Shown here: positions 2,011-14,362 of the stretch, piece after piece | How positions within the stretch are numbered: position 1 is the stretch's first letter | Layout of the letters: each line of letters begins with the position of its first letter | DNA from: a bacterium | Lineage (GTDB): Bacteria > Oederibacteriota > PGYV01 | Reading direction: 5' to 3' | Assembly (NCBI GenBank): GCA_029565735.1 | Contig: JAKQNO010000022.1 | Span: 1-63,269 of the forward strand | Length of the DNA stretch: 63,269 nucleotides | Notes under the pieces: model-generated | Databases searched by the model: none | Seen by the model: only the letters and a program-made list of their open reading frames with translations | What the model was told of the DNA's origin: nothing | Position numbers and translations under genes: made by a program

Positions 2011-2044
2011 AAAAAAAGCCCCGGAGCTGATGCCCCGGGGCTTT
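2011..2044 (-). terminator. Rho-independent terminator of the glycoside hydrolase operon
   Basis: Read on the minus strand, AAAGCCCCGG pairs with CCGGGGCTTT around a short loop and is followed by a run of T. It starts 17 bases past the stop codon of the hydrolase gene. Confidence 0.85.
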
Positions 2045-2061
2045 AAGATTACCTGGTTATA

Positions 2062-4374
2062 TTACTTATTTAATTCAAGCAGCGTTACAGAGAAAGGCGG
2101 GAATGTGTATTTGAAGTTCTTTCCTCCATTTATATTTATCTCTGACGGGCCGTCATTTACTATCGCCTTGTACAGGTCTTTGCTCCATACGTATTCTTTC
2201 TTGCTGAACTGATACGCTTTTCCGCCGCCTACTCCGGTGCCGGATATCGCAATTGATGCGTCAGCCGCAAAAAGTTTTGTCTTGTTTATTGCCATTATGG
2301 TAAGTTTGCCATCATCCCCTGTTGCCGCGTACACTGACAAATCAGGGTTATCTGATTCGCACTTTACCATATTTGTGCCGAACTTCTGCGCGTATAACAT
2401 TACAGGCCAGTAATGGCCCCTTTCTGCTGACCTGTTTGTCGGGTCGTTTTCTGCGTCAAACATACCGTGTCCGCCGCCCTGTCCGGGTTTCTGTGTGAAT
2501 AAGTCCCAGAAAAACGCCATGTCCCCGCCCTCTTTCATAAACGAGCCAAGGTAGTCAGCGCAGAATAAAGCGTTTTCTATTAACGCTGTCATGGAGTTTT
2601 CTTCACCGGAGTTCCATTCAGTAAGGGCAACTTCTATATATTTCTTTTCCTGTCCCGGCACGCTGTTTACGTACTTCTTTATCCACGATCTGAACTTGGG
2701 CATGTACACGGGCCATGTCTGCTGCGGTTTCTTTAACAGCGCGATGGCGTTGTTGTTTGCCCAAAGCGGGTATTCGTGTATTGCAAGCGTGTCCACATAT
2801 TTGGCTGATTTCTTTAAGAACTTTTCAACCCAATAAGGCGCTTCTTTCGGCGCAAGCCATGGTTCGCCGGCAAGCCTTTCCTGGTTCATAGGCTGCATCG
2901 GGCACGGCCCCATTAATTTTAACTTGTCATCAGGGAATGCTTTTTTAACTTTATATGTCGTGTAATTAAACACATTACTTACATTGTCTATGCTTGTCCA
3001 CCACTGCGTCACTTTCTTTGATGTGGGCGATTTCATAAGCGTGGTCACAGAAGAACCTTTCTTTAAAGCAGCCGCGGGCCCAAGGCACTGCGGTTTGTTA
3101 TCAGGTTCGTTGCCCACTTCAACATATCTGAATTTTATCCCCTTGTTCTTCATATCCTGCAGCCATTGTATCTGGTAGTCCACCCTTTCATCTATTGACT
3201 TGCTGTCAGGCGTCATTACGTTTAATATGGGCATTACTTCAAAGCCCGCCATTTCCTTTTCCATTCTCTTGATAAACGGCACCATTCCGCCGTAGTAATT
3301 AAGTTCCGGCGTCCAGCTTACCCCGCCGTCATAATTATATACTTCGCCTGTCTTCCAGTCATACTGGTTGCCGTAGTCCCCGCCCGGTATCCTTAAAAAC
3401 GATACGCCAAGTTTTTTTATTTTCGCAACCACGTTGTTGTCCCTGTACGCCGCGACAGGATGCCACGCCGCAAGGTTGTTACCGTACATTTTGTGCTTGT
3501 CTATCGGAAGCTTTCTTATTGACTTGGACGCGTCTATTGTTACAGCTGATGCTTTTGTCTTAGGCGCCGCTTCAGGAATAAGCGCTATCGCGCCAAGGTT
3601 ATTTTCTTTGCCTGCCGCAATCACGGCCGACGATACTGTCTTGTCTTTATATCCGTCTTTTACCACAATTACTTTATAATCATCAGCCGGTATCGTCGTG
3701 GAAAAATTACCCGACCCGTCTGTCTTTAAAAGCTGATCCCCTATTACCACAAGCGCTTTTTCAAGCCCTTTTCCGGAAACATTATCCTTGACTGTCCCCT
3801 TTACCTGCGCGGGTTCGCCAAGCAGTTTTCCCCTAATGGAATCCACATATATGGGGCCTGCCCACGCTTCAGTGCTGTTTACAACAATGTAAATCTTCCA
3901 GACTTCGCCTTTTACTTTGGTGTTGTCTATAGGAAATACAACTTCATTCATTCCGGGCTTAATCTGCTTCTTTAACTGGTACCACGCGTTTGCCTTGCCG
4001 GAAATAACAAAATACATTTCCTGGTAAGTCATGCCTTTAACCGATGCTTCAGGCACGTACACGTCCATTGTAAGTTCTTTTAACTTGTGGAAATCCGCTG
4101 AAAAAGGCCCTTCAAACAAGGCAACATCCTGATTCCACCCCTTAACCCCTGTAAGGTTAATTTTTAAAGCCGATGTCCCTCCTGTTACAAACTCCGCGCC
4201 TTTTGCCACAGAGCACGCCGTAGCGTACTTGTTTGCGCCGTGCCAGCCTTCCGTGGTGCCCGAATCAAAACCCCATAAGGGCTTCTGACCGGAAGCACCC
4301 TCGGCAAAAACCTGTGCCGAGAAAAGAAGAACAAGCGCGGTTACTGCTGCTAACACTGCATTTTTTGTCCTCAT
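2062..4374 (-). CDS. Secreted clan GH-A glycoside hydrolase with CBM-like and CarboxypepD_reg-like domains
   Basis: The start is set at 4374 because AAAGGAGGTAATAAG sits directly before it and the product then begins with a clean signal peptide (MRTKNAVLAAV...AQVFA). Domains in the 770-residue product: carbohydrate-binding-like beta-sandwich about 30-180, a CarboxypepD_reg-like Ig fold about 187-265, an (alpha/beta)8 catalytic domain about 285-690, and a C-terminal beta domain. VEVGNEP gives the acid/base Glu423 and ALTEWNSG the nucleophile Glu586; their spacing fits clan GH-A. It should cut a plant or microbial polysaccharide outside the cell; arabinofuranosidase- or xylanase-type activity is possible but not decided. 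It is the last gene of the sigma factor / membrane sensor group, 62 bases after the sensor, which suggests it is a target of that system. Confidence 0.85.
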   Translation of the reverse strand: MRTKNAVLAAVTALVLLFSAQVFAEGASGQKPLWGFDSGTTEGWHGANKYATACSVAKGAEFVTGGTSALKINLTGVKGWNQDVALFEGPFSADFHKLKELTMDVYVPEASVKGMTYQEMYFVISGKANAWYQLKKQIKPGMNEVVFPIDNTKVKGEVWKIYIVVNSTEAWAGPIYVDSIRGKLLGEPAQVKGTVKDNVSGKGLEKALVVIGDQLLKTDGSGNFSTTIPADDYKVIVVKDGYKDKTVSSAVIAAGKENNLGAIALIPEAAPKTKASAVTIDASKSIRKLPIDKHKMYGNNLAAWHPVAAYRDNNVVAKIKKLGVSFLRIPGGDYGNQYDWKTGEVYNYDGGVSWTPELNYYGGMVPFIKRMEKEMAGFEVMPILNVMTPDSKSIDERVDYQIQWLQDMKNKGIKFRYVEVGNEPDNKPQCLGPAAALKKGSSVTTLMKSPTSKKVTQWWTSIDNVSNVFNYTTYKVKKAFPDDKLKLMGPCPMQPMNQERLAGEPWLAPKEAPYWVEKFLKKSAKYVDTLAIHEYPLWANNNAIALLKKPQQTWPVYMPKFRSWIKKYVNSVPGQEKKYIEVALTEWNSGEENSMTALIENALFCADYLGSFMKEGGDMAFFWDLFTQKPGQGGGHGMFDAENDPTNRSAERGHYWPVMLYAQKFGTNMVKCESDNPDLSVYAATGDDGKLTIMAINKTKLFAADASIAISGTGVGGGKAYQFSKKEYVWSKDLYKAIVNDGPSEININGGKNFKYTFPPFSVTLLELNK

Positions 4375-4436
4375 CTTATTACCTCCTTTATTTTTTTTAC
4401 ATCTATTTGACATATTTTTCTGCTGTATTGATTACT

Positions 4437-5273
4437 TTAAAAAAGCTCCACATCGTCTATCCATATTTCAACAGGCGAACCGTTGCCGTTTTTATGCTGC
4501 CATTTAAACAGATGGACATTCTTTAAAACATCTTCAATATCCGCGGCGTATTTCCTTCCGGCCCAGTCAGGCTGTTTTAAATCATCCCTGAAAACAATTG
4601 TCACTTCATTCCATTCTCCGCTGATAAACGGGGTAATATCCTTCTCGTAATCGGCGTAGTTTGTAAGGCTCTCGCAGGTCATCCTCTCTTTAACGCATTT
4701 ATTGGATTCATGCGGCAGTATGAAGTTTACGCCGCCTCCCGCGGTATTGCCTTTTATTTTAAACCTTATCCCGTTATATTTTGAAATATCCGAACCCTGG
4801 CATTCAGGGCACTGTGATTTTTTATCAAACCTGACCACAACGCCTATATAATTATAGTTGTATCCCAGGTTATTTCCGGTAGTCCCTGTAATCCGCACAG
4901 CCCAGCCTGTATTGCCGTATCCGGGTTTGCTCATTATAAATCCTTCTCCGGGAGCGTTAAATTCCGGGGGCCATACGTATGAATTGCCTCCCTGATGGCC
5001 GTCGCTGTAAGTTGACCAGACGCCGCCGTTTCTGTTGAATTTATCCCCGTCATCCATATTATCAACTACAAATACCGTAACAGCCGTAAAGGCAAAAACA
5101 GCCGCAATTGACAGAGCCGCGGCATAACGGTGTATGAAATCGGGCTTTTTGACCGACGCGCGTGAAACAGCATATTTAAAAAGCGCGTTTTTAAGGAATT
5201 GCTTCCCTGTTTCGCCCTTTATTCCTGCCAGTTTTGCCCTGTTAAGCTTTTCTATAAGGTCTTTTTCTTCCAT
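4437..5273 (-). CDS. Single-pass membrane protein with extracytoplasmic carbohydrate-binding-like domain; possible anti-sigma sensor
   Basis: The 278-residue product has a cytoplasmic N-terminus of about 50 residues, one membrane helix (about 51-70, AAALSIAAVFAF...), and an outside domain of about 200 residues ending WIDDVELF. The outside part has the look of a CIA30/CBM11-type beta-sandwich: NGIRFKIKG, GEWNEVTI, and the closing strand IEIWIDDVEL-like pattern common in carbohydrate-binding modules. It starts 57 bases after the ECF sigma gene and 62 bases before the secreted glycosidase. By position and topology it could be the anti-sigma partner, binding the sigma factor inside and sugar outside, as RsgI proteins do in clostridia. 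The N-terminus has no zinc anti-sigma signature that I can recognise, so this role is inference. Strong ribosome site (AAAGGAGGTAATAGTT). Confidence 0.75.
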   Translation of the reverse strand: MEEKDLIEKLNRAKLAGIKGETGKQFLKNALFKYAVSRASVKKPDFIHRYAAALSIAAVFAFTAVTVFVVDNMDDGDKFNRNGGVWSTYSDGHQGGNSYVWPPEFNAPGEGFIMSKPGYGNTGWAVRITGTTGNNLGYNYNYIGVVVRFDKKSQCPECQGSDISKYNGIRFKIKGNTAGGGVNFILPHESNKCVKERMTCESLTNYADYEKDITPFISGEWNEVTIVFRDDLKQPDWAGRKYAADIEDVLKNVHLFKWQHKNGNGSPVEIWIDDVELF

Positions 5274-5330
5274 AACTATTACCTCCTTTCCTTACACTCT
5301 TATAATGCGGACATCCGCTTATGGTTGCAC

Positions 5331-5912
5331 TTATTTTTCATTTTTTTCAAGTTTTTTTCTAAGGTACAAAAGTCCCCTTGATAAAAGGGATTTCACTGTC
5401 CCTTCGCTTTTGCCAAGAGCCTGCGCTATTTCCTGCACTTTCATTTCCTGAAAAAACCTTAGCACTATTACATCCTGGTACTTTGAATCCATGGCAAAAA
5501 GCGCTTCTTTTATCTGCTGATAATCCCTGTTTTTGTCTATTTCTTCCTGCGCTTCATTAAGTTCCCTGTCAATTGACTCCGCCGATTCTTTATCAAGGAC
5601 CCCTTCTTCGCCTATCGCGTCTTCATATGATACCGGATCATACTTTTTCTTTCTGAAATACATGTTTATTTCATTTCCGGCAATCCTGTACAGCCAGGCG
5701 GAAAAAGGCGCCCCCGTAAATCTGTAAGTGCCTATTTTATTAAGGGCTTTAAAAAAGGTTTCAGAGGCGATATCAGAAGCGGTTTCCGCGTTTCCCGTCC
5801 TGTGGAGTGCGTATCTGAGGATTGGTTTATGGTATTTGTCAAACAATACGCCGAAAGCGGCCGGATTTACCTTTGCCAGCTCTATGATTTCATGTTCGTT
5901 TTTCCCGTGCAT
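5331..5912 (-). CDS. ECF-type RNA polymerase sigma factor
   Basis: The 193-residue protein has sigma region 2 (about 25-95, with AFGVLFDKYHKPILRYA and the DNA-melting part AWLYRIAGNEINMYFRKKK) and region 4 (about 130-185, YQDVIVLRFFQEMKVQEIA followed by a helix-turn-helix GKSEGTVKSLLSRG). An acidic linker of about 35 residues separates them. It would direct RNA polymerase to a small regulon. It lies 29 bases after a GGDEF gene and directly before the membrane sensor and the secreted hydrolase, a typical place for a sigma/anti-sigma pair with its target gene. Confidence 0.93.
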   Translation of the reverse strand: MHGKNEHEIIELAKVNPAAFGVLFDKYHKPILRYALHRTGNAETASDIASETFFKALNKIGTYRFTGAPFSAWLYRIAGNEINMYFRKKKYDPVSYEDAIGEEGVLDKESAESIDRELNEAQEEIDKNRDYQQIKEALFAMDSKYQDVIVLRFFQEMKVQEIAQALGKSEGTVKSLLSRGLLYLRKKLEKNEK

Positions 5913-5941: not shown

Positions 5942-7333
5942 TTACGCTTTTGTTACCCTGTTTCTTCCGTTATTTTTCGAAGCATAAAGCGCCTTATCGG
6001 CCTGCTCCACAAGGTTGCGCCTTGAAACAGCATCGCCGGGATAAGTCGACACACCCATACTGACCGTGATGCTTATCAGCGTCCCGTTAAAATTAAGTTT
6101 TGTTTTTTCCAGGTCCTTCCTTATTTTAACGGCTTTGGCATGGGCCGCTTCCTTATCCGTATCCGGCATAATTATCACAAATTCCTCGCCTCCGTATCTT
6201 GCAACAGTCTCCGCCGGGGTTGTGTGATTTTTAAGCATTACGGCCAGCTGCTTTAAGATAAAATCGCCGGCAAGATGGCCGTATGTATCATTTATCTTTT
6301 TAAAAAAATCAATATCGCACATCACAAGGGACAGATGGTTATCATACCTTCCCGCCCTTTTAATTTCATCTTCAAGTTTTTCCTGGAAATACCTGTGCAC
6401 AAAAAGCCCGGTAAGGCTGTCAGTCACCGATATCTGCTGTATTTCCTCATATAAATTCACTTTTTCAAGGGAAATGGCTATCTGGTTGGCAAGGATTTTC
6501 ATGTTTTCAACCTGTTTCGCATTAAACAGGTTTTCCACCGGCGCGGAAATAATCATTATCCCAAGAAGCCTTTTTTCCACTACAAACGGCACCTTAAGAA
6601 CGCTCTTGTGGAAATCCATATTGTCATTGCCCGATGAACTGTATGAAATTTCAAGCTGTGTTTTATCATTTATAACCGATTTTATAAGTTCCTGCTCTTT
6701 CTCTTTTATGAATTCATCATCATATCCCATTGAAGCCGCTATGTAGAATGAATCGCGTTTTTTGAACGCAAGCAGGACATTTACGGAATCAGGCTCTATT
6801 TTAAAGTTATACTTCAGGACTTTTTTAAGTATTTCCTTGATTATCACCGCCATATCATCAAACTTTATGGCAAAACTTAAATCTTTCGCGGCTGTATAAA
6901 GGGATGTGATGCCCTTGATTTCCGATTCAATGTTATCATCCTCTTTTTCCGCGGTGCTTACCGATTCCCTTTTTATTTCTTCAAGATTTTTTTTCTTGTT
7001 CATTAACTCCTGCTCGCGGTCGTTTAATTTAAGCTCCGCGTCGCCGAAAGGTATTGAAAAGACATAAAGCGAAAGATACCAAAGGCAGCATATCAAAAGC
7101 GCTGCCGGAGAGATTGTTTTAAGCGGAAAAGCCAGCGTGGCAGTGGCAAGCCATGCAAACACAAGAAAAAACTTAAATTCACCTCTCGGAATCATTTTCA
7201 CGGCAAGAAGAATCAGAATACCAAGCAAAAACACCGCATAATCAGCAACGGAATTTTTAAAAAACAGGCCAAGAACATATATGACGGCCGCGGACACTGC
7301 AAACGCCGGGTACAGGATCAGTTTATTTTTCAT
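5942..7333 (-). CDS. Membrane GAF-GGDEF diguanylate cyclase without I-site
   Basis: About four N-terminal membrane helices (residues 1-115) are followed by a short coiled coil (about 122-150), a GAF domain (about 160-295) and a GGDEF domain (about 300-463) with the active motif RYGGEEF. The product should make cyclic di-GMP from two GTP at the membrane. The residues that would form the RxxD inhibitory site before the motif read TPAE, so feedback inhibition through that site is probably lost. The start overlaps the end of the previous GGDEF gene by 11 bases, within a GGGAGGATATCAGGG ribosome site, so the two are translationally coupled. Confidence 0.92.
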   Translation of the reverse strand: MKNKLILYPAFAVSAAVIYVLGLFFKNSVADYAVFLLGILILLAVKMIPRGEFKFFLVFAWLATATLAFPLKTISPAALLICCLWYLSLYVFSIPFGDAELKLNDREQELMNKKKNLEEIKRESVSTAEKEDDNIESEIKGITSLYTAAKDLSFAIKFDDMAVIIKEILKKVLKYNFKIEPDSVNVLLAFKKRDSFYIAASMGYDDEFIKEKEQELIKSVINDKTQLEISYSSSGNDNMDFHKSVLKVPFVVEKRLLGIMIISAPVENLFNAKQVENMKILANQIAISLEKVNLYEEIQQISVTDSLTGLFVHRYFQEKLEDEIKRAGRYDNHLSLVMCDIDFFKKINDTYGHLAGDFILKQLAVMLKNHTTPAETVARYGGEEFVIIMPDTDKEAAHAKAVKIRKDLEKTKLNFNGTLISITVSMGVSTYPGDAVSRRNLVEQADKALYASKNNGRNRVTKA

Positions 7334-8801
7334 CCCTGATATCCTCCCAGAACGTCACTTTGTTCCTTCCGTTTTCTTTTGAATGATACAGCGCCTTATC
7401 GGCGTTATTTACCATTTCTCCAAGTTTGCGTTTGGCGTTAAACTCTATTCCGCCCACGCTTAAGGTAAGTTTTTTCCTCTCCGTCTCATTGACATTAATA
7501 ATCAGTTTTTCAAAATTACCGCGTATCCTTTCGGCCACAAACCTTGCGCCGTTAAGATTGGTATTGGGCAGCACAATTGCAAATTCTTCCCCTCCATAAC
7601 GGCCTATAATATCAATATCCCTTAAATTATCCTTTAAAAATTCCCCAAGAATTTTTAACACCTTATCGCCGAAAGTGTGTCCGTGCGTGTCATTACATTC
7701 CTTAAAATGGTCTATGTCAATCATCAGGTATGAAAAAGTCTCGCTAAGTTCCTTTGCCCTTTTATATTCCTCGTCCAGTTTTTCCATAAAGTGGCGCCTG
7801 ATAAAAAGCCCTGTAAGCCCGTCGCGTGTGGCAAGTTCCCTGGTTTTTGAATACAGCATGGCGTTCTGAACGGCGTTTGTGCAAAGGTCTCCAAGATAAT
7901 TTAAAAGCCTGGCATCTTCGTTGTCAAACATGCTTGCAACTTTGGAATAAAATTTAAGCAGCCCTATAATATTTGAATTTGCCACAAGTGGTATGGCTAT
8001 CATTGACTTAAATTTTATCCAGTCGCGCCTTACAAGTTTAAACCTGAAATCCTCGTCAATATTCTTGATTACAAGGGTGCACTTGTTTTTTATTATCCAG
8101 TCGTCAAACGGGTCTTTTCTGTACACTTTAATAATCCCTTTGATGAAAGTTTCCTTTTCATGTTCATCAATAGCGGGGTAAAATGTATCGTTATCCTCGT
8201 CCCTTATCAGCAGCATGAATTCCGCGTCTTTTTTCCCAAGGATGGTATTCATACCTTCGTTTATTATTTTGACTATCACTTTCCTGTCAAGGGCGGAAGT
8301 AAGCTTCTGCGCAATTTCATTAAGCTTTAAATAGTTCTTTATCCTTTCCTTGTTGGCTTCTATCACGCCGTTTAACTTATGCATTTTTTCAGTGTAATCA
8401 ATCCGTTCCTTTTCCAGTTCGCTTTCCCACAGTTCATACTGCCCCTCTTTCATTTCTATCCATTCAATATCTTTCATGGCGACATAGGAAAACAGGACGG
8501 CAAGGACCACATAAACGGCAAAAGGCGCCGGATTTTCACCCTGTGTTGTCTTTAAAAACAGGATAAGGTTTAAAAAGATAAAAAACACCGTGTATATAAG
8601 CCCGGCAGTTTTTCCCATTGAAAAAAAACAGTAAAGGAGAAGGAATAATCCAAACGACACAACAAGCGGATTGTCAAAAAAAACGGCAAGGGTTATAAGC
8701 ACAACGCTTAATAAAAAAGCGACCGCGGAATTCACGGCGATGAAAGCCTTATTTCTGTTAGCGCGATAATACAGCCTGTCAAAGACAGACAGTTTATCCA
8801 T
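7323..8801 (-). CDS. Membrane GAF-GGDEF diguanylate cyclase with intact I-site
   Basis: The start at 8801 (MDKLSVFDRLYYR) is preferred over one 57 bases upstream, because the longer version would lie inside the HD-GYP gene; the chosen ATG overlaps that gene's last codons by 8 bases (ATGGATAA). About four membrane helices come first (to about residue 110), then a coiled coil, a GAF domain and a C-terminal GGDEF domain with RYGGEEF. The inhibitory motif RDID sits at the right distance before it, so this cyclase can probably be shut off by its product, unlike its neighbour. The two proteins share their architecture and probably arose by duplication. Confidence 0.92.
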   Translation of the reverse strand: MDKLSVFDRLYYRANRNKAFIAVNSAVAFLLSVVLITLAVFFDNPLVVSFGLFLLLYCFFSMGKTAGLIYTVFFIFLNLILFLKTTQGENPAPFAVYVVLAVLFSYVAMKDIEWIEMKEGQYELWESELEKERIDYTEKMHKLNGVIEANKERIKNYLKLNEIAQKLTSALDRKVIVKIINEGMNTILGKKDAEFMLLIRDEDNDTFYPAIDEHEKETFIKGIIKVYRKDPFDDWIIKNKCTLVIKNIDEDFRFKLVRRDWIKFKSMIAIPLVANSNIIGLLKFYSKVASMFDNEDARLLNYLGDLCTNAVQNAMLYSKTRELATRDGLTGLFIRRHFMEKLDEEYKRAKELSETFSYLMIDIDHFKECNDTHGHTFGDKVLKILGEFLKDNLRDIDIIGRYGGEEFAIVLPNTNLNGARFVAERIRGNFEKLIINVNETERKKLTLSVGGIEFNAKRKLGEMVNNADKALYHSKENGRNKVTFWEDIRDEK

Positions 8802-9924
8802 TGAACACCGCGCTTTTCCGAAGGTGCCTGATAAACGCGTCAACGACAGCAGGATCAAACTGAGTGCCGGAATTTTTCCTCAGTTCCGATATTGCAAGCT
8901 CCGCCGGAAGCATATCCCTGTAAGCCCTGGCAGAGACCATTGTATCAAACGCGTCGGCAACATGAATTATCCTTGCGCCGACCGGAATCTCTTCGCCTTT
9001 AAGCTTATCAGGATAACCTTTGCCGTCAAACCTTTCGTGGTGATGAAGTATTATGGGTACAATGGCCGCAAGCGAATCTATTTCTTTTATTATTTTTGCA
9101 CCGATAACAGGATGGTTTCTGACAATCAGGAATTCCTCTTCCGACAGTTTTGACGGTTTTTTGATTATTTCGTCAGGCATGCCTATTTTTCCTATATCGT
9201 GAAGCAGCCCCGCGTACTTAATTATCTCTATTTCCCTTTCCTGAAGCATCATCTCTTCGGCGATATGGGTCCCGTATTCCGACACTTTCTGCGAATGGCC
9301 CGAAGTATAATGATCCTTTGCGTCAACTGTGGTTGACAGCGCTTTTATTATGTTCACTTCATCTTTTTTCATGCTTTCATAAAGCTTTACGTTTTCAATT
9401 GCCAGCGCGGCCTGTTTAGAAAGTATGGTCAGCAGCGACAAGTCCCTGCTGGTTATATCGCCTTCCGGCGTTTCGGTTATAAGGTCAAGAAGCCCCACAG
9501 GTTTATCATGCGCGATAAGGGGCACAAGCACAAAGGTCACCTTTTCGCTGTCGTCAATTTCTTCTTCAATATCCGGAAGGGCTATTGTCCTGCCTTTTTT
9601 AAGCGCCCATTCAATTACTTTTTTCTTGTTCTGCAGGTTTATCTTGTTTTCTATTTTTCTGCTTATGTTGCGCTTAAGCCCAACGTCAATTTCTCCGGTG
9701 GTGTCATCAATTAAAAACAGCATGGCGCCGTGGCACGGAATTACTTCCGCCGCAAGGTCAAGAAGCGAGTTTAACACGCGTTCCAGCGTCCTGGCTTCCG
9801 CTATAATATCAACAAGCCTGTAAAGTGTTGTCAGTTCTTCAAATGACTGGCGCAGCCCCTCATTAATTACTTCCAGGTTTTTAATGTATTCTTTAAGCTG
9901 TTTTACTTCTTCATCAGAATCCAT
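8794..9924 (-). CDS. GAF - HD-GYP cyclic di-GMP phosphodiesterase
   Basis: The 376-residue soluble protein starts with a coiled coil (1-30), has a GAF domain (about 40-180) and an HD-GYP domain (about 195-365). The metal-binding HDIGKIGMPD and the family signature HHHERFDGKGYP are both present, as are the DHYTSGHSQ and ADAFDTMVSARAYR elements. It should hydrolyse cyclic di-GMP, opposing the two cyclases encoded directly downstream. A ribosome site (AAGGGGACAAG) precedes the ATG. It lies 15 bases after the HDOD gene. Confidence 0.94.
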   Translation of the reverse strand: MDSDEEVKQLKEYIKNLEVINEGLRQSFEELTTLYRLVDIIAEARTLERVLNSLLDLAAEVIPCHGAMLFLIDDTTGEIDVGLKRNISRKIENKINLQNKKKVIEWALKKGRTIALPDIEEEIDDSEKVTFVLVPLIAHDKPVGLLDLITETPEGDITSRDLSLLTILSKQAALAIENVKLYESMKKDEVNIIKALSTTVDAKDHYTSGHSQKVSEYGTHIAEEMMLQEREIEIIKYAGLLHDIGKIGMPDEIIKKPSKLSEEEFLIVRNHPVIGAKIIKEIDSLAAIVPIILHHHERFDGKGYPDKLKGEEIPVGARIIHVADAFDTMVSARAYRDMLPAELAISELRKNSGTQFDPAVVDAFIRHLRKSAVFNG

Positions 9925-9939
9925 CTTGTCCCCTTATTA

Positions 9940-10818
9940 TCAGAACGAAGTCATGTTAAAAAATGCCTGCGCTTCGTTAAGTTCCAGATCCAGTTTACCC
10001 ATCAGTTCCTCTTCCGCTTTTTCATCAAGGTTCAAAAGCGCCCTCGCTTCCCCGCTTAAAGGCAATATTGCCGTGTCGCCGGAATTCCCAAGCCCTTTTT
10101 TATTGCACAGGCTGTTGGCCACGTTGACAATTGTCGCCATCACATTTTCTTCCTGTTCATCTTCCGGATGATGGTGAAAATTAATACCCGCCTGAAGTTC
10201 GTGCGGCAGGTTCCATTTTTCCGCCATTATCCTTCCCACTGCCTGGTGGTCAATGCCTATAATCTGCATTTCCGCCTGATACAAAGGAATCTTTTTCTCC
10301 GCGGAATCTTTAAGCGCCATTACAAATTCTTCGTGCATATACTGTTCAAAAAAGGTCTTGCCGATGTCATGAAGAAGCCCGGCCGTAAACGCGCTTTCAT
10401 GTGATTTGTATTTTATTTTTTTCGCAAGCAGGCTGCAGCACAAAGCCACACCCACGCTGTGTTTCCAGAATTCCTGATGGGAAAAAAAGGCGTTCCTGTC
10501 GTCTCCGGTAAAAATTTTATGTACTGAAACCGTAAGCGCAAGATTTCTTATGGTATCAAAACCAAGTATGGATACAGCCTGGGTGATGTTTTTTATCCTG
10601 AACGGGAAACCGTAAAAAGCCGAATTGGCAAGCCTTAAAACCTTCGCGGTCAGGGCCTGATCCACCATTATAATGCTGCTTAAATCGGAAGCCGATGTAA
10701 GAGGATTTGAAACAACCTGAATTACCCTTGCCACCACGACAGAAAGCGTCGGCAGGGCTTTTATGCGTTCAAGTATCCTTTGAATTTTCTCTTCCTGCTG
10801 GTGAAGCTTGTCATCCAT
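9940..10818 (-). CDS. HDOD domain signalling protein
   Basis: The 292-residue product matches the HDOD family, a catalytically altered relative of HD phosphohydrolases: LPTLSVVVARVIQVVSNP near the N-terminus, then ALTAKVLRLANSAFYG, AVSILGFDTIRNLAL and AGLLHDIGKTFFEQYM. HDOD proteins usually act as adaptors next to cyclic di-GMP or two-component proteins. The start overlaps the coaE stop by 8 bases (ATGGATGA), and the HD-GYP gene follows after 15 bases, so it belongs to the same transcript. Confidence 0.92.
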   Translation of the reverse strand: MDDKLHQQEEKIQRILERIKALPTLSVVVARVIQVVSNPLTSASDLSSIIMVDQALTAKVLRLANSAFYGFPFRIKNITQAVSILGFDTIRNLALTVSVHKIFTGDDRNAFFSHQEFWKHSVGVALCCSLLAKKIKYKSHESAFTAGLLHDIGKTFFEQYMHEEFVMALKDSAEKKIPLYQAEMQIIGIDHQAVGRIMAEKWNLPHELQAGINFHHHPEDEQEENVMATIVNVANSLCNKKGLGNSGDTAILPLSGEARALLNLDEKAEEELMGKLDLELNEAQAFFNMTSF

Positions 10819-11422
10819 TAAAGCCCCCGCTGATTTTATTTACCGCCTTTAAAACGCTGAAGCAAAGGTCTTTTTTTGTTTTATTATTATAAATTATATA
10901 ACTGCTATATGCAATCTTTTTCGGTTCGGGAAAGAAATCCTGATAAGACCTTATCGCGCCGTATTGCTTGTTTTTAATGCGCTGCGTCCGTTTAAGCCAT
11001 ATTTTTGAATCTGTTTTTATATAAATAACCGCGTCCGTTTTCCTGTAAAAACCGCTTTCAAAAAGCACGGCCATATCAAGGATAACCAAATTTCCGCCGA
11101 AAGTATTTATGTGTTTTAAAAGCGCCCTGTTCATGGCGGGATAAACCATTTTGATAAATGATTTATAAGCCGCGTGCGACCCGAATATGACGGTGCCAAG
11201 ATTCTTCCTGTCTATCTGCCCGTCGGGCGACAGTATCTTTTTGCCGTATTTTTTAACAAGCGATGAATACAAAGCGCATCCCGGCGCGTATATTGAATGG
11301 ACAAATTCATCAACATCCACAACCATAAAACCTTTTTTGCGCAGAAATTTCGCGGCCACAGTCTTTCCCGTGCCCGTGTATCCTGTTATGCCTATTATTT
11401 TTATTCCATGCTTCTTTTTCAT
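10811..11422 (-). CDS. coaE: Dephospho-CoA kinase
   Basis: The 203-residue protein has the P-loop GYTGTGKT (residues 14-21) followed by AAKFLRKKGFMVVDVDEFVH, the CoaE arrangement in which an Asp next to the loop binds substrate, and the lid region with RTQRIKNK. It phosphorylates the ribose of dephospho-CoA in the last step of coenzyme A synthesis. The length is normal. It heads the signalling operon and is coupled to the HDOD gene by overlap. The other pantothenate genes are about 28 kb away. Ribosome site GCGGGGAATTGG. Confidence 0.88.
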   Translation of the reverse strand: MKKKHGIKIIGITGYTGTGKTVAAKFLRKKGFMVVDVDEFVHSIYAPGCALYSSLVKKYGKKILSPDGQIDRKNLGTVIFGSHAAYKSFIKMVYPAMNRALLKHINTFGGNLVILDMAVLFESGFYRKTDAVIYIKTDSKIWLKRTQRIKNKQYGAIRSYQDFFPEPKKIAYSSYIIYNNKTKKDLCFSVLKAVNKISGGFNG

Positions 11423-11454
11423 CCAATTCCCCGCTTGATTTAATTATTTATGTC

Positions 11455-11760
11455 TTCGCTTATGCTTAAATGCCTATTGCTTATCTGCTTATTTTTTTCT
11501 TTCGCTTTTTGTCCCCGCTTCTTTCGCTGATAAAACCGCTTCATTGCGGGGATTTCCGCTGCGCATGCTCGCTCCAACTTAATTGCCTATAGCTTAATTG
11601 CTTATGCCTTCGCCGCTTCATTGCGTGGATTTCCGCTGCGCATGCTCGCTCCAACTTAACTGCCTATTTTTATCTTTCGCTTATGCTTAATTGCCTATTG
11701 CTTATCTGCTTATTTTTTCTTTCGCTTATGCTTAACTGCCTATTGCTTAATACGCTATTC
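11455..11760. repeat. Intergenic block of GCTTA words and two 47-bp direct repeats
   Basis: This gap between coaE and polA is entirely repetitive. Two near-identical 47-bp copies (11536-11582 and 11613-11659, each with GGATTTCCGCTGCGCATGC and GCTCGCTCCAACTTAA) are 77 bases apart. They are set among variants of CGCTTATGCTTA-CTGCCTAT-GCTTAA. The last tract ends about 10 bases from the polA stop codon. No promoter with a recognisable -35/-10 pair for coaE stands out. Confidence 0.7.
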
Positions 11761-11764
11761 TTTC

Positions 11765-14362
11765 CTACCCGCATTCATACCAGTTTTCCCCTGTGCCCAC
11801 GGTCACGGTTACAGGCACGGTTAAATCCGCAGCGCCTTCCATAAATTCAACCGCGATTTTACGCGCCGCCGCAGCTTCTTTTTCCGGCACCGAAAACACA
11901 AGTTCATCGTGCACCTGAAGTATCATTTTGGTTTTCATCTTTTTATTTTCAAGTTCCCTCTGAATATCTATCATTGCCTTCTTGATAATGTCAGCCGCCG
12001 TCCCCTGCACGGGCGCGTTTATGGCGGCGCGCTCTGATAATTCGCGTATGGTCCTGTTGGCGCTGTTGATGTCTTTAAAATACCTGCGCCTTCCCATTAA
12101 GGTTTCCACATAGCCCTTTTCACGCGCGGCTTCTATTGTGTCCTGCTGGTATTTTTTAACCCCCGGGAAATTGGCAAAAAATTTATCTATGTATTCACCC
12201 GCTTCGTAGTTTCCTATTTTAAGCTGCTTTGCCAGGCCGTAAGGGCTGATACCGTAAATTATTCCAAAATTTATGGTCTTGGCAAAACGCCTTTGTTCGC
12301 GGGTAAGTTCTTCTTTGGATACTTCAAAGACCTCGCAGCCCGTTATTGTGTGTATGTCCTCGCCTTTTTTAAAGGCATCAATCAGCTTTTTATCGCCCGA
12401 CATGTGCGCCATGATGCGCAGCTCTATCTGGGAGTAATCCGCTTTAAGCACGGTTTCGCCGGCGCCAAGCGGCACAAATATCTTCCTTATCGCCTTCGCC
12501 TCTTCGCTTCTTGCCGGAATATTCTGTATATTGGGATTGCTTGCCGACAGCCTGCCGGTAGCCGCCACGGTCTGGTTATAAGACGGGTATATTTTGTCAT
12601 TGCGAGTCATGAATGACAGTATTACGTCAAGAAATCCGCCTTTTAATTTGGTTAAAGATCTGTATTTAAGTATTTCCGCCACCGCGGGGTGCGCGTCTTC
12701 AAGGTTTGAAAGCACTTCAATATCCGTGGAATAACCTGTTTTTGTCTTCTTCTGCGTTTTAAGTTTCAATTTTTCAAACAGAATTACAGAAAGCTGTTTG
12801 GGCGAATTAATATTAAACTCTTCGCCGGTTAGTTTATAAACATTTTTTTCCGAAGCCGCTATCTCTTTTTCCGTATCCTTAATCAGCTGCTGCAGGAATT
12901 TACGGTCTATCTTAAGCCCCTCTTTTTCCATTACGGCAAGCACGCGCGACAGCGGCAGTTCTATTGTTTCATATATGGGGGTCAATGACGCTTTTTTCAT
13001 CTTTTTCCCAAGTTCAAACGCAAGGTCTTCGGAGTGCGCGCACAGCGAAAACACGTACTTGTCTATATTTTCTTTCCCGGCCAGTTCTATCATAATTTTT
13101 TTGGCGCCTTTGCCCGCAAGTTCTTCAAACGAAAGGAACGTCCCGCCAAGGTATTCAGAAAACACCCCTGCCGCGTCCTTAAAGTTCCTTTCAGGGTCAA
13201 CAAGATACGACGCCAACATTACGTCAAAAATTTTCTCTTTGTCATCAAGCGCCGAATCTTTAAACACCTGTTTCGCGGAATTGGTGATTATTTTTTTGCC
13301 CTTCAGATAACCAGGCAGGCCGGCATATGAAGAACCGAACATGTGCCAGTATTTTTTCCCGTCTGACACGGCGACTATTTCCACGCTTTCTTCGCCGCCA
13401 AAAAAAACACTGACAGTATCGGCCGCCGCAAGCTCTTTTTTTATTTCATCAAAAGAAGAAATATTAACGGATTTCTTCTGTGCCTTAACTTCCTGCTTTA
13501 CCTGCCCGCCGGATACAAGAGATTTAAAATTATACTTTATAAACTCCCTGTCAAGGGCTTCCATATCAATTGAAGAAACGGCGCACTGTTCGCTTTTAAA
13601 GTTTATTTTTTCCAGCGGCGCTGTGTCGGTATTCAGCGTAATTAACTGCCTGCTTATCTTTGCCTCTTCGGTGCCGGCAAGTATCAGTTTTTTTGCGCGC
13701 TCCGGTTTTATCTTATCCGCGTTTTTTATTATGCCGTCAATTGAACCGTATTCCTTTACAAGCGCGTACGCTGTTTTTTCGCCCACGCCTTTAACGCCCG
13801 GAATATTGTCCGCCGAATCGCCCATAAGCGATAAAACATCTATTATCTGCTTTGGCTCTATTCCCATTTTAAGTTTTACCGATTCCGGCGTAAGAATGGT
13901 CTCGCCGTCCCTTCCCACCCTTAAAATGCTGATGTTTTTGTTAACAATCTGTATCAGGTCTTTATCGCCTGTCAGCACCATTACTTTCATCTTTCTGATT
14001 TCAGCTTCATGCGCGGCGGAGGCAATTAAATCATCCGCTTCATATCCTTCCTCTTCAAGAAGCGGAATCTTTCCCGCGGCTGCTATTTCCTTTATCAGTT
14101 TCATCTGTATTTTCAGGGAATCAGGCATCTTCTGGCGTTTTTCCTTGTAGCCCGGAAACATTTTGTTCCTGTACGTTTTGCCCGGGTAATCAAACGCAAT
14201 GCAGAAGCAGTCGGGTTTTTTTTCTTTTATTATCTTAAGCAGCATATTGTAAAAACCATAAACAGCATGGACTTCCATGCCGTCCGCCGTGGTCAAAGGC
14301 GGCATTCCAAAAAATGCCCTGTAAGCAAAAGAGTTGCCGTCAGCTATATAAAACGTTCCCAT
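11765..14362 (-). CDS. polA: DNA polymerase I (3'-5' exonuclease residues missing)
   Basis: The 865-residue protein has the 5' nuclease domain (1-285; GDKDLIQ, GDSADNIPGVKGVGEKTA), a middle 3'-5' exonuclease-like domain (about 295-470) and the polymerase domain (about 480-865) with motif A KADYSQIELRIMAHMSGD, motif B RRFAKTINFGIIYG and motif C LQVHDELVF. The middle domain lacks the DxE metal-binding motif (the matching strand reads VSVFFGGEES), so proofreading should be absent, as in Taq polymerase. It fills gaps after excision repair and removes RNA primers. The ATG overlaps the truA stop codon by one base (TAATG), so the two are coupled. Confidence 0.97.
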   Translation of the reverse strand: MGTFYIADGNSFAYRAFFGMPPLTTADGMEVHAVYGFYNMLLKIIKEKKPDCFCIAFDYPGKTYRNKMFPGYKEKRQKMPDSLKIQMKLIKEIAAAGKIPLLEEEGYEADDLIASAAHEAEIRKMKVMVLTGDKDLIQIVNKNISILRVGRDGETILTPESVKLKMGIEPKQIIDVLSLMGDSADNIPGVKGVGEKTAYALVKEYGSIDGIIKNADKIKPERAKKLILAGTEEAKISRQLITLNTDTAPLEKINFKSEQCAVSSIDMEALDREFIKYNFKSLVSGGQVKQEVKAQKKSVNISSFDEIKKELAAADTVSVFFGGEESVEIVAVSDGKKYWHMFGSSYAGLPGYLKGKKIITNSAKQVFKDSALDDKEKIFDVMLASYLVDPERNFKDAAGVFSEYLGGTFLSFEELAGKGAKKIMIELAGKENIDKYVFSLCAHSEDLAFELGKKMKKASLTPIYETIELPLSRVLAVMEKEGLKIDRKFLQQLIKDTEKEIAASEKNVYKLTGEEFNINSPKQLSVILFEKLKLKTQKKTKTGYSTDIEVLSNLEDAHPAVAEILKYRSLTKLKGGFLDVILSFMTRNDKIYPSYNQTVAATGRLSASNPNIQNIPARSEEAKAIRKIFVPLGAGETVLKADYSQIELRIMAHMSGDKKLIDAFKKGEDIHTITGCEVFEVSKEELTREQRRFAKTINFGIIYGISPYGLAKQLKIGNYEAGEYIDKFFANFPGVKKYQQDTIEAAREKGYVETLMGRRRYFKDINSANRTIRELSERAAINAPVQGTAADIIKKAMIDIQRELENKKMKTKMILQVHDELVFSVPEKEAAAARKIAVEFMEGAADLTVPVTVTVGTGENWYECG

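Follow-up and report, generated by a model that had tools for sequence, protein, structure and literature searches.

In Clostridium thermocellum, RsgI-type anti-sigma factors span the membrane and carry a carbohydrate-binding domain on the outside, and the SigI/RsgI systems, of which several paralogous pairs occur per genome, control scattered cellulase genes as well as their own operon (PMC4711584, PMC6056542, PMC12203970). An extracytoplasmic function (ECF) sigma factor linked to a transmembrane segment and a carbohydrate-binding domain is found in the ECF52 and ECF53 groups of Actinobacteria, for example SCO4117 (PMC8999054, PMC10766802, PMC5826349). Putative counterparts of these features, with a candidate anti-sigma factor and a candidate regulon, occur in the locus described here, which lies in a 63,269-nucleotide stretch of a Goldbacterium (contig JAKQNO010000022.1, positions 1-63,269, referred to below as the window). 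The locus encodes an ECF sigma factor, a single-pass membrane protein and a secreted glycoside hydrolase (GH) of clan GH-A, and we consider it quite likely to be a transmembrane, carbohydrate-sensing sigma/anti-sigma switch with feedback.

Goldbacteria, an uncultured phylum, are cellulose degraders with many GH5, GH8, GH9 and GH44 enzymes, including active GH9 enzymes, and their commonest carbohydrate-binding module (CBM) is CBM11 (PMC7031533). The literature searched yielded no previous description of the regulation of their cellulose-degrading enzymes, and the string 'regulat' is absent from the text of PMC7031533.

Results

The initial annotation, made from the sequence of the window alone, had described the three genes as an operon on one strand, with intergenic gaps of 57 and 62 nucleotides and a closing terminator, and had proposed that the membrane protein is an anti-sigma factor of a new, ECF-linked class through which bound polysaccharide turns on the hydrolase. 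Pfam searches, topology and coordinates bear out the triple, both gaps and the terminator (Table 1). The sigma factor matches Sigma70_r2 (E = 2.6e-15) and Sigma70_r4_2 (E = 9e-14), and its top NCBIfam model is the BldN family, at a score under the cut-off of that model.

Examination of 59 relatives of the membrane protein and their gene neighbourhoods reveals two paralogous systems in 10 genomes of one taxonomic order, comprising 19 membrane genes in total. System A, that of the window, consists of sigma factor, membrane protein and hydrolase and is present in 10 genomes; in system B, present in nine, the sigma factor and membrane protein are joined by a free version of the outer domain with its own signal peptide, and the genome of the window carries this system at a separate place (G000:C54 = L048). 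A sigma gene lies immediately 5' of the membrane gene in 18 of the 18 cases with readable upstream sequence (the 19th begins near a contig end), and the two are separate genes at every locus. The gene pair thus recurs in related genomes, and no readable membrane gene stands apart from a sigma gene. Public relatives of the membrane protein belong to genomes that carry the label Candidatus Goldiibacteriota or candidate division FCPU426, and in some cases to metagenome-assembled genomes under other labels, which identifies the window as Goldbacterial. Wherever the contig extends, the system A sigma gene is preceded by polA, coaE, HDOD, HD-GYP and two GGDEF genes (5942-14362 in the window; L039-L047), and because nine other genomes have this triple behind these upstream genes, the arrangement is beyond chance. 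This synteny suggests a genetic tie between cyclic di-GMP (c-di-GMP) signalling and the sigma factor; in system B, the c-di-GMP genes are absent.

The free ectodomain gene of system B (L048:1884-2570, with equivalents in L049-L056) may encode a decoy, co-receptor or scavenger. Proteins of similar size from other families of the phylum (L021-L026) were considered as anti-sigma factors and rejected, being lipoproteins or secreted proteins that lack both the N-terminal tail described below and an adjacent sigma gene. Genomes G004 and G009 likewise contain ectodomain lipoproteins, with neither the tail nor the sigma/membrane gene pair.

The single transmembrane helix of the membrane protein is accompanied by a positive-inside charge bias, which places the N terminus in the cytoplasm. 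The tail so exposed, about 46 amino acids long, has the conserved pattern KLxxAxLxxIxxPxNxxxLKxAL and lacks Hx3Cx2C, and most members have no tail cysteine at all. A profile of the tail run against 45 genomes of the phylum recovered exactly the 19 membrane genes, plus one match at the chance level (E = 0.1). No Pfam model matched residues 1-46, the RsgI model gave no match in the 19 members (E ≤ 1), and neither the whole membrane protein nor its tail found a relevant sequence in the PDB, the tail giving only chance matches to the Rac family.

The sigma and membrane genes lie in the same reading frame, and they were modelled with AlphaFold as a fusion in which three in-frame TAA codons were read through as Gly. 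In this model, the tail forms two helices (residues 3-12 and 21-40) with a predicted local distance difference test (pLDDT) score of 80-87, as compared with 44-53 when the sigma factor is left out of a model whose outer domain nonetheless reaches about 90. The sigma factor of the fusion adopts the compact, anti-sigma-bound form, superposing on SigW-RsiW (TM-score, TMt, 0.78) and on CnrH-CnrY (TMt 0.78, root mean square deviation (rmsd) 4.4), as opposed to a TMt of mostly 0.3-0.4 and an rmsd of ~28 against forms bound to RNA polymerase. The tail is therefore predicted to bind the sigma factor through the kind of helix pair that the initial annotation had suggested looking for. With this pair, the fold of the outer domain, the co-occurrence with sigma genes and the shared promoter described below, the reading of the membrane protein as an ECF-linked anti-sigma candidate has gained support, sigma binding being a prediction. 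By comparison, the proposal that the N terminus defines a new class stands at the level of sequence, where no match to a known anti-sigma factor was found, and is weakened by a two-helix architecture that resembles class II (CnrY/NepR).

That missing sequence match, together with the c-di-GMP genes upstream of system A, would also fit a membrane protein that is a co-regulated, anchored glycan binder and no anti-sigma factor, the sigma factor being controlled otherwise, for example by those upstream enzymes. We regard this as highly improbable: the tail is confined to genes next to a sigma gene, its model confidence depends on the sigma factor, system B manages without c-di-GMP genes, and a sigma gene next to an autoregulated membrane gene is the classic layout of an anti-sigma pair. 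In this genome, four other ECF genes are followed by ordinary zinc anti-sigma factors with HxxxCxxC, so that systems A and B are the exception.

The outer domain is modelled as a CBM11-type beta-sandwich. Its best solved structures in Foldseek are the CBM11 entries 6r3m and 1v0a (E = 3e-8 to 7e-8, TMt 0.66-0.67), with CBM30 structures also found, and the best Pfam CBM_11 match among the 19 members has E = 0.0018, under the cut-off. It thus appears to be a candidate sugar-binding domain, as the initial annotation had suspected from the sequence, with a fold like that of CBM11, a family characterised by binding to beta-1,4 or mixed-linkage glucans. Since the genome encodes BamA, the cell is diderm and the outer domain periplasmic, and oligosaccharides are a likelier ligand there than bulk polysaccharide. 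The claim that bound polysaccharide is the signal therefore holds as to the carbohydrate-binding fold and shifts as to the ligand, the sensor probably reading oligosaccharides.

The same periplasmic placement would suit a different anti-sigma sensor, one whose outer domain responds to a secreted partner such as the free ectodomain of system B, to envelope stress, or to redox state or metal through its CPxC pair. The free ectodomain encoded beside the system B sensor and the invariance of three ectodomain cysteines speak for such a signal. We nevertheless think it unlikely, given that the nearest known structures are CBM11 and CBM30 folds, that polysaccharide hydrolases dominate the promoter regulon, and that relatives of the ectodomain are found in regulon hydrolases and, in repeated form, in long reading frames. 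The cysteines in question, Cys155 and Cys158 (the CPxC pair) and Cys200, are unchanged across systems A and B, and system A has a further one, Cys193; a disulfide or metal site is possible. The long frames, of 1200-2165 codons (G010:C118, G010:C28, G013:C138, G001:C46, G003:C53 and others), probably encode giant surface glycan-binding proteins.

Inspection of the gap between the sigma and membrane genes reveals an ECF-type promoter that is the sole exact match in the window to the consensus GCAAC-N16-CRTTATA. All 19 membrane genes are preceded by GCAAC, 16-17 nucleotides and a CRTTATA-like box, 48-67 nucleotides before the ATG, in many cases overlapping the 3' end of the sigma gene. Because this promoter lies in the 57-nucleotide gap, the unit is more than a single operon transcribed from upstream of the sigma gene, although the common strand, the short gaps and the terminator of the original one-operon view stand. 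The gap between the membrane and hydrolase genes was considered as the site of a second promoter, which was rejected as it contains no motif; since the hydrolase gene follows the anti-sigma gene, it would be read from the anti-sigma promoter. The motif also precedes eight of the eight readable system B sigma genes, at spacings of 15-17 nucleotides, and none of the 10 system A sigma genes. The promoter motif that had been expected to be shared is consequently common to the anti-sigma unit with its hydrolase, the system B sigma genes and GH genes, and is missing from the front of the system A sigma gene.

The specificity of the spacing was assessed by pattern searches with spacers of N10-N22 across the ten system-bearing genomes, affording 47 sites at N16, whereas the other spacings averaged 6.75 and N20 gave three. 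In 14 genomes of the phylum without the systems, only four sites occur in ~39 Mb, as compared with the 47 in ~26 Mb. A run of T follows GCAAC on its 3' side at sites genome-wide; such a run resembles classical ECF -35 elements. Spacers N11 (17 matches) and N21 (12 matches) also exceed the background, perhaps because of repeated coding sequences.

The 47 N16 sites define the candidate regulon. Of these, 34 lie before system genes (14) or before secreted carbohydrate-active proteins (20), the latter including GH9 with CelD_N, GH44, GH42-like, CBM4/9-bearing and F5/8C-bearing, arabinofuranosidase-like proteins. Two further sites, in two genomes, are located 86-185 nucleotides upstream of LacI regulators (L099, L123), hinting at a second regulatory layer, and two more, again in two genomes, precede a related pair of secreted proteins (L116, L119) that share an N-terminal ENLI(V/I)P... 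region and are possibly outer-membrane or surface-layer proteins. These distributions lead us to infer that the sigma factors of the two systems read GCAAC-N16-CRTTATA promoters. The motif could instead be read by another sigma factor, in which case it would provide no tie between this sigma factor and the hydrolases; the 11 places in the genome that match sigma-70 region 2 offer candidates, and the system A sigma gene has no such motif in front of it. This is very unlikely in view of the motif's presence at all readable system B sigma genes and at every membrane gene of both systems, and of its rarity in members of the phylum that lack them.

The hydrolase carries a signal peptide whose Met, at 4374, is residue 14 of an open reading frame called from 4413, and it has a Pfam match to CarboxypepD_reg. 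Its catalytic domain is closest to GH44 and GH51: the profile matched GH51 enzymes as well as the GH44 cellulase 3fw6 (E = 1.2e-9), and the Pfam scan gave no match to Glyco_hydro_44. To judge from the sequence, the GH-A acid/base and nucleophile are retained as Glu436 (in GNEP) and Glu599 (in TEWN), which are unchanged in nine orthologues. The orthologue in G002 (L040, around 6600) is broken by a run of N, an assembly gap and not a true split gene.

Table 1. Features of the system A locus in the window.
Feature	Coordinates	Strand	Basis or details
ECF sigma factor (system A sigma), 193 aa	5331..5912	-	Pfam Sigma70_r2, r4
ECF-type promoter GCAAC-N16-CATTATA, sigma/membrane gap	5301..5328	-	start 55 nt before membrane-gene ATG
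Membrane anti-sigma candidate, 278 aa	4437..5273	-	CBM11-like outer domain, transmembrane helix, sigma linkage
Cytoplasmic N-terminal tail, residues 1-46; two helices predicted to bind sigma; lacks a Zn motif	5136..5273	-	AlphaFold, profile
Transmembrane helix, residues 52-70, N-in	5064..5120	-	hydropathy and charge bias (18 proteins)
Outer domain in the periplasm, residues 80-278; beta-sandwich with CBM11-like fold	4440..5036	-	Foldseek, weak Pfam CBM_11
Secreted clan GH-A hydrolase	2062..4374	-	signal peptide, N-terminal CBM-like region, CarboxypepD_reg, catalytic domain
Intrinsic terminator 3' of hydrolase	2015..2044	-	13-bp stem and T run

Discussion

The structure of the locus and of its candidate regulon suggests a model for the switch. 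At rest, the ECF sigma factor would be kept near the inner membrane in the clamp of the two-helix cytoplasmic tail. A periplasmic oligosaccharide of beta-glucan type (cello- or mixed-linkage), made by the secreted enzymes, would bind the CBM11-like domain, and the sigma factor would be freed, probably via regulated intramembrane proteolysis by an RseP-like protease; the genome encodes an RseP-like M50 protease, which is what such a step would need. The free sigma factor would then transcribe the anti-sigma and hydrolase unit from GCAAC-N16-CRTTATA, providing feedback plus enzyme, together with the rest of the regulon, scattered genes whose products are secreted cellulases and hemicellulases (GH9, GH44, GH42-like, CBM4/9-bearing and F5/8C-bearing), and in system B it would additionally transcribe its own gene.

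Several points weigh against this model. The fusion model covers the cognate sigma factor only, and AlphaFold may put any ECF sigma factor in the compact form; the Pfam CBM_11 match of the protein in the window is under the cut-off (E = 0.0095, 16.4 bits versus 27); nine of the 47 promoter sites have no sensible downstream gene or run off the contig; and motif sites from genomes of the same genus do not count as independent of one another.

A more far-reaching proposal is that the tail forms a class of its own among ECF anti-sigma domains, with two helices and no zinc, confined to Goldbacteria and joined to a periplasmic CBM11-like sensor, with system A tied genetically to the c-di-GMP operon. 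We hold this to be doubtful as a whole. If true, attachment signalling and cellulase expression would be under one switch in system A.

Comparison with the described anti-sigma classes sets the tail apart to varying degrees. Class I (ZAS-type) factors carry Hx3Cx2C in a domain of ~100 amino acids, unlike the shorter, motif-free Goldbacterial tail. The class II factors CnrY and NepR, whose class is defined by a segment of <50 amino acids that wraps the sigma factor with two helices, share with it a short tail and two predicted helices, and the modelled sigma factor is compact as in 4cxf (PMC7406223, PMC8103513), although sequence similarity is undetectable and CnrY/NepR pairs are not known as carbohydrate sensors; the tail may thus be class II-like in architecture and unrelated in sequence. 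The class III factor RsbN, partner of the sigma factor BldN, is likewise membrane-anchored and zinc-free, and the Goldbacterial sigma factor scores best with the BldN model (PMC8103513). RsbN differs in having three helices as opposed to two, in its outer domain and in the lack of any sequence match, and the modelled sigma arrangement superposes poorly on 6dxo (rmsd 14). The novelty of the tail is thus proven in terms of sequence only.

Among carbohydrate-responsive systems, those of Bacteroides also use an ECF sigma factor and a membrane anti-sigma factor to induce polysaccharide degradation genes (PMC10766802), yet they involve TonB-dependent transporters, whereas in Goldbacteria a CBM-like domain is fused to the putative anti-sigma factor, with secreted hydrolases as the targets identified. 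In ECF52 and ECF53, sigma factor, zinc-finger anti-sigma factor and CBM form one polypeptide, in contrast to the two proteins without a zinc motif found here. With SigI/RsgI, which the CBM11-like fold and the candidate regulon would suit, the likeness is one of logic and not of family membership, because the Goldbacterial sigma factor is a true ECF protein with regions 2 and 4 (by Pfam and NCBIfam) and not SigI, the tail is unrelated, and the cell is diderm with a periplasmic sensor. The locus thereby suggests that, in a diderm and outside the SigI/RsgI world, polysaccharide may be sensed through an anti-sigma factor that bears a CBM and acts on an ECF sigma factor, and it offers for an uncultured phylum a sigma/anti-sigma pair open to testing, a sharply defined promoter and a set of candidate regulon genes. 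What is new is that RsgI/SigI-like logic appears to be run by an ECF sigma factor and a short, zinc-free anti-sigma tail, which the models predict to bind one another.

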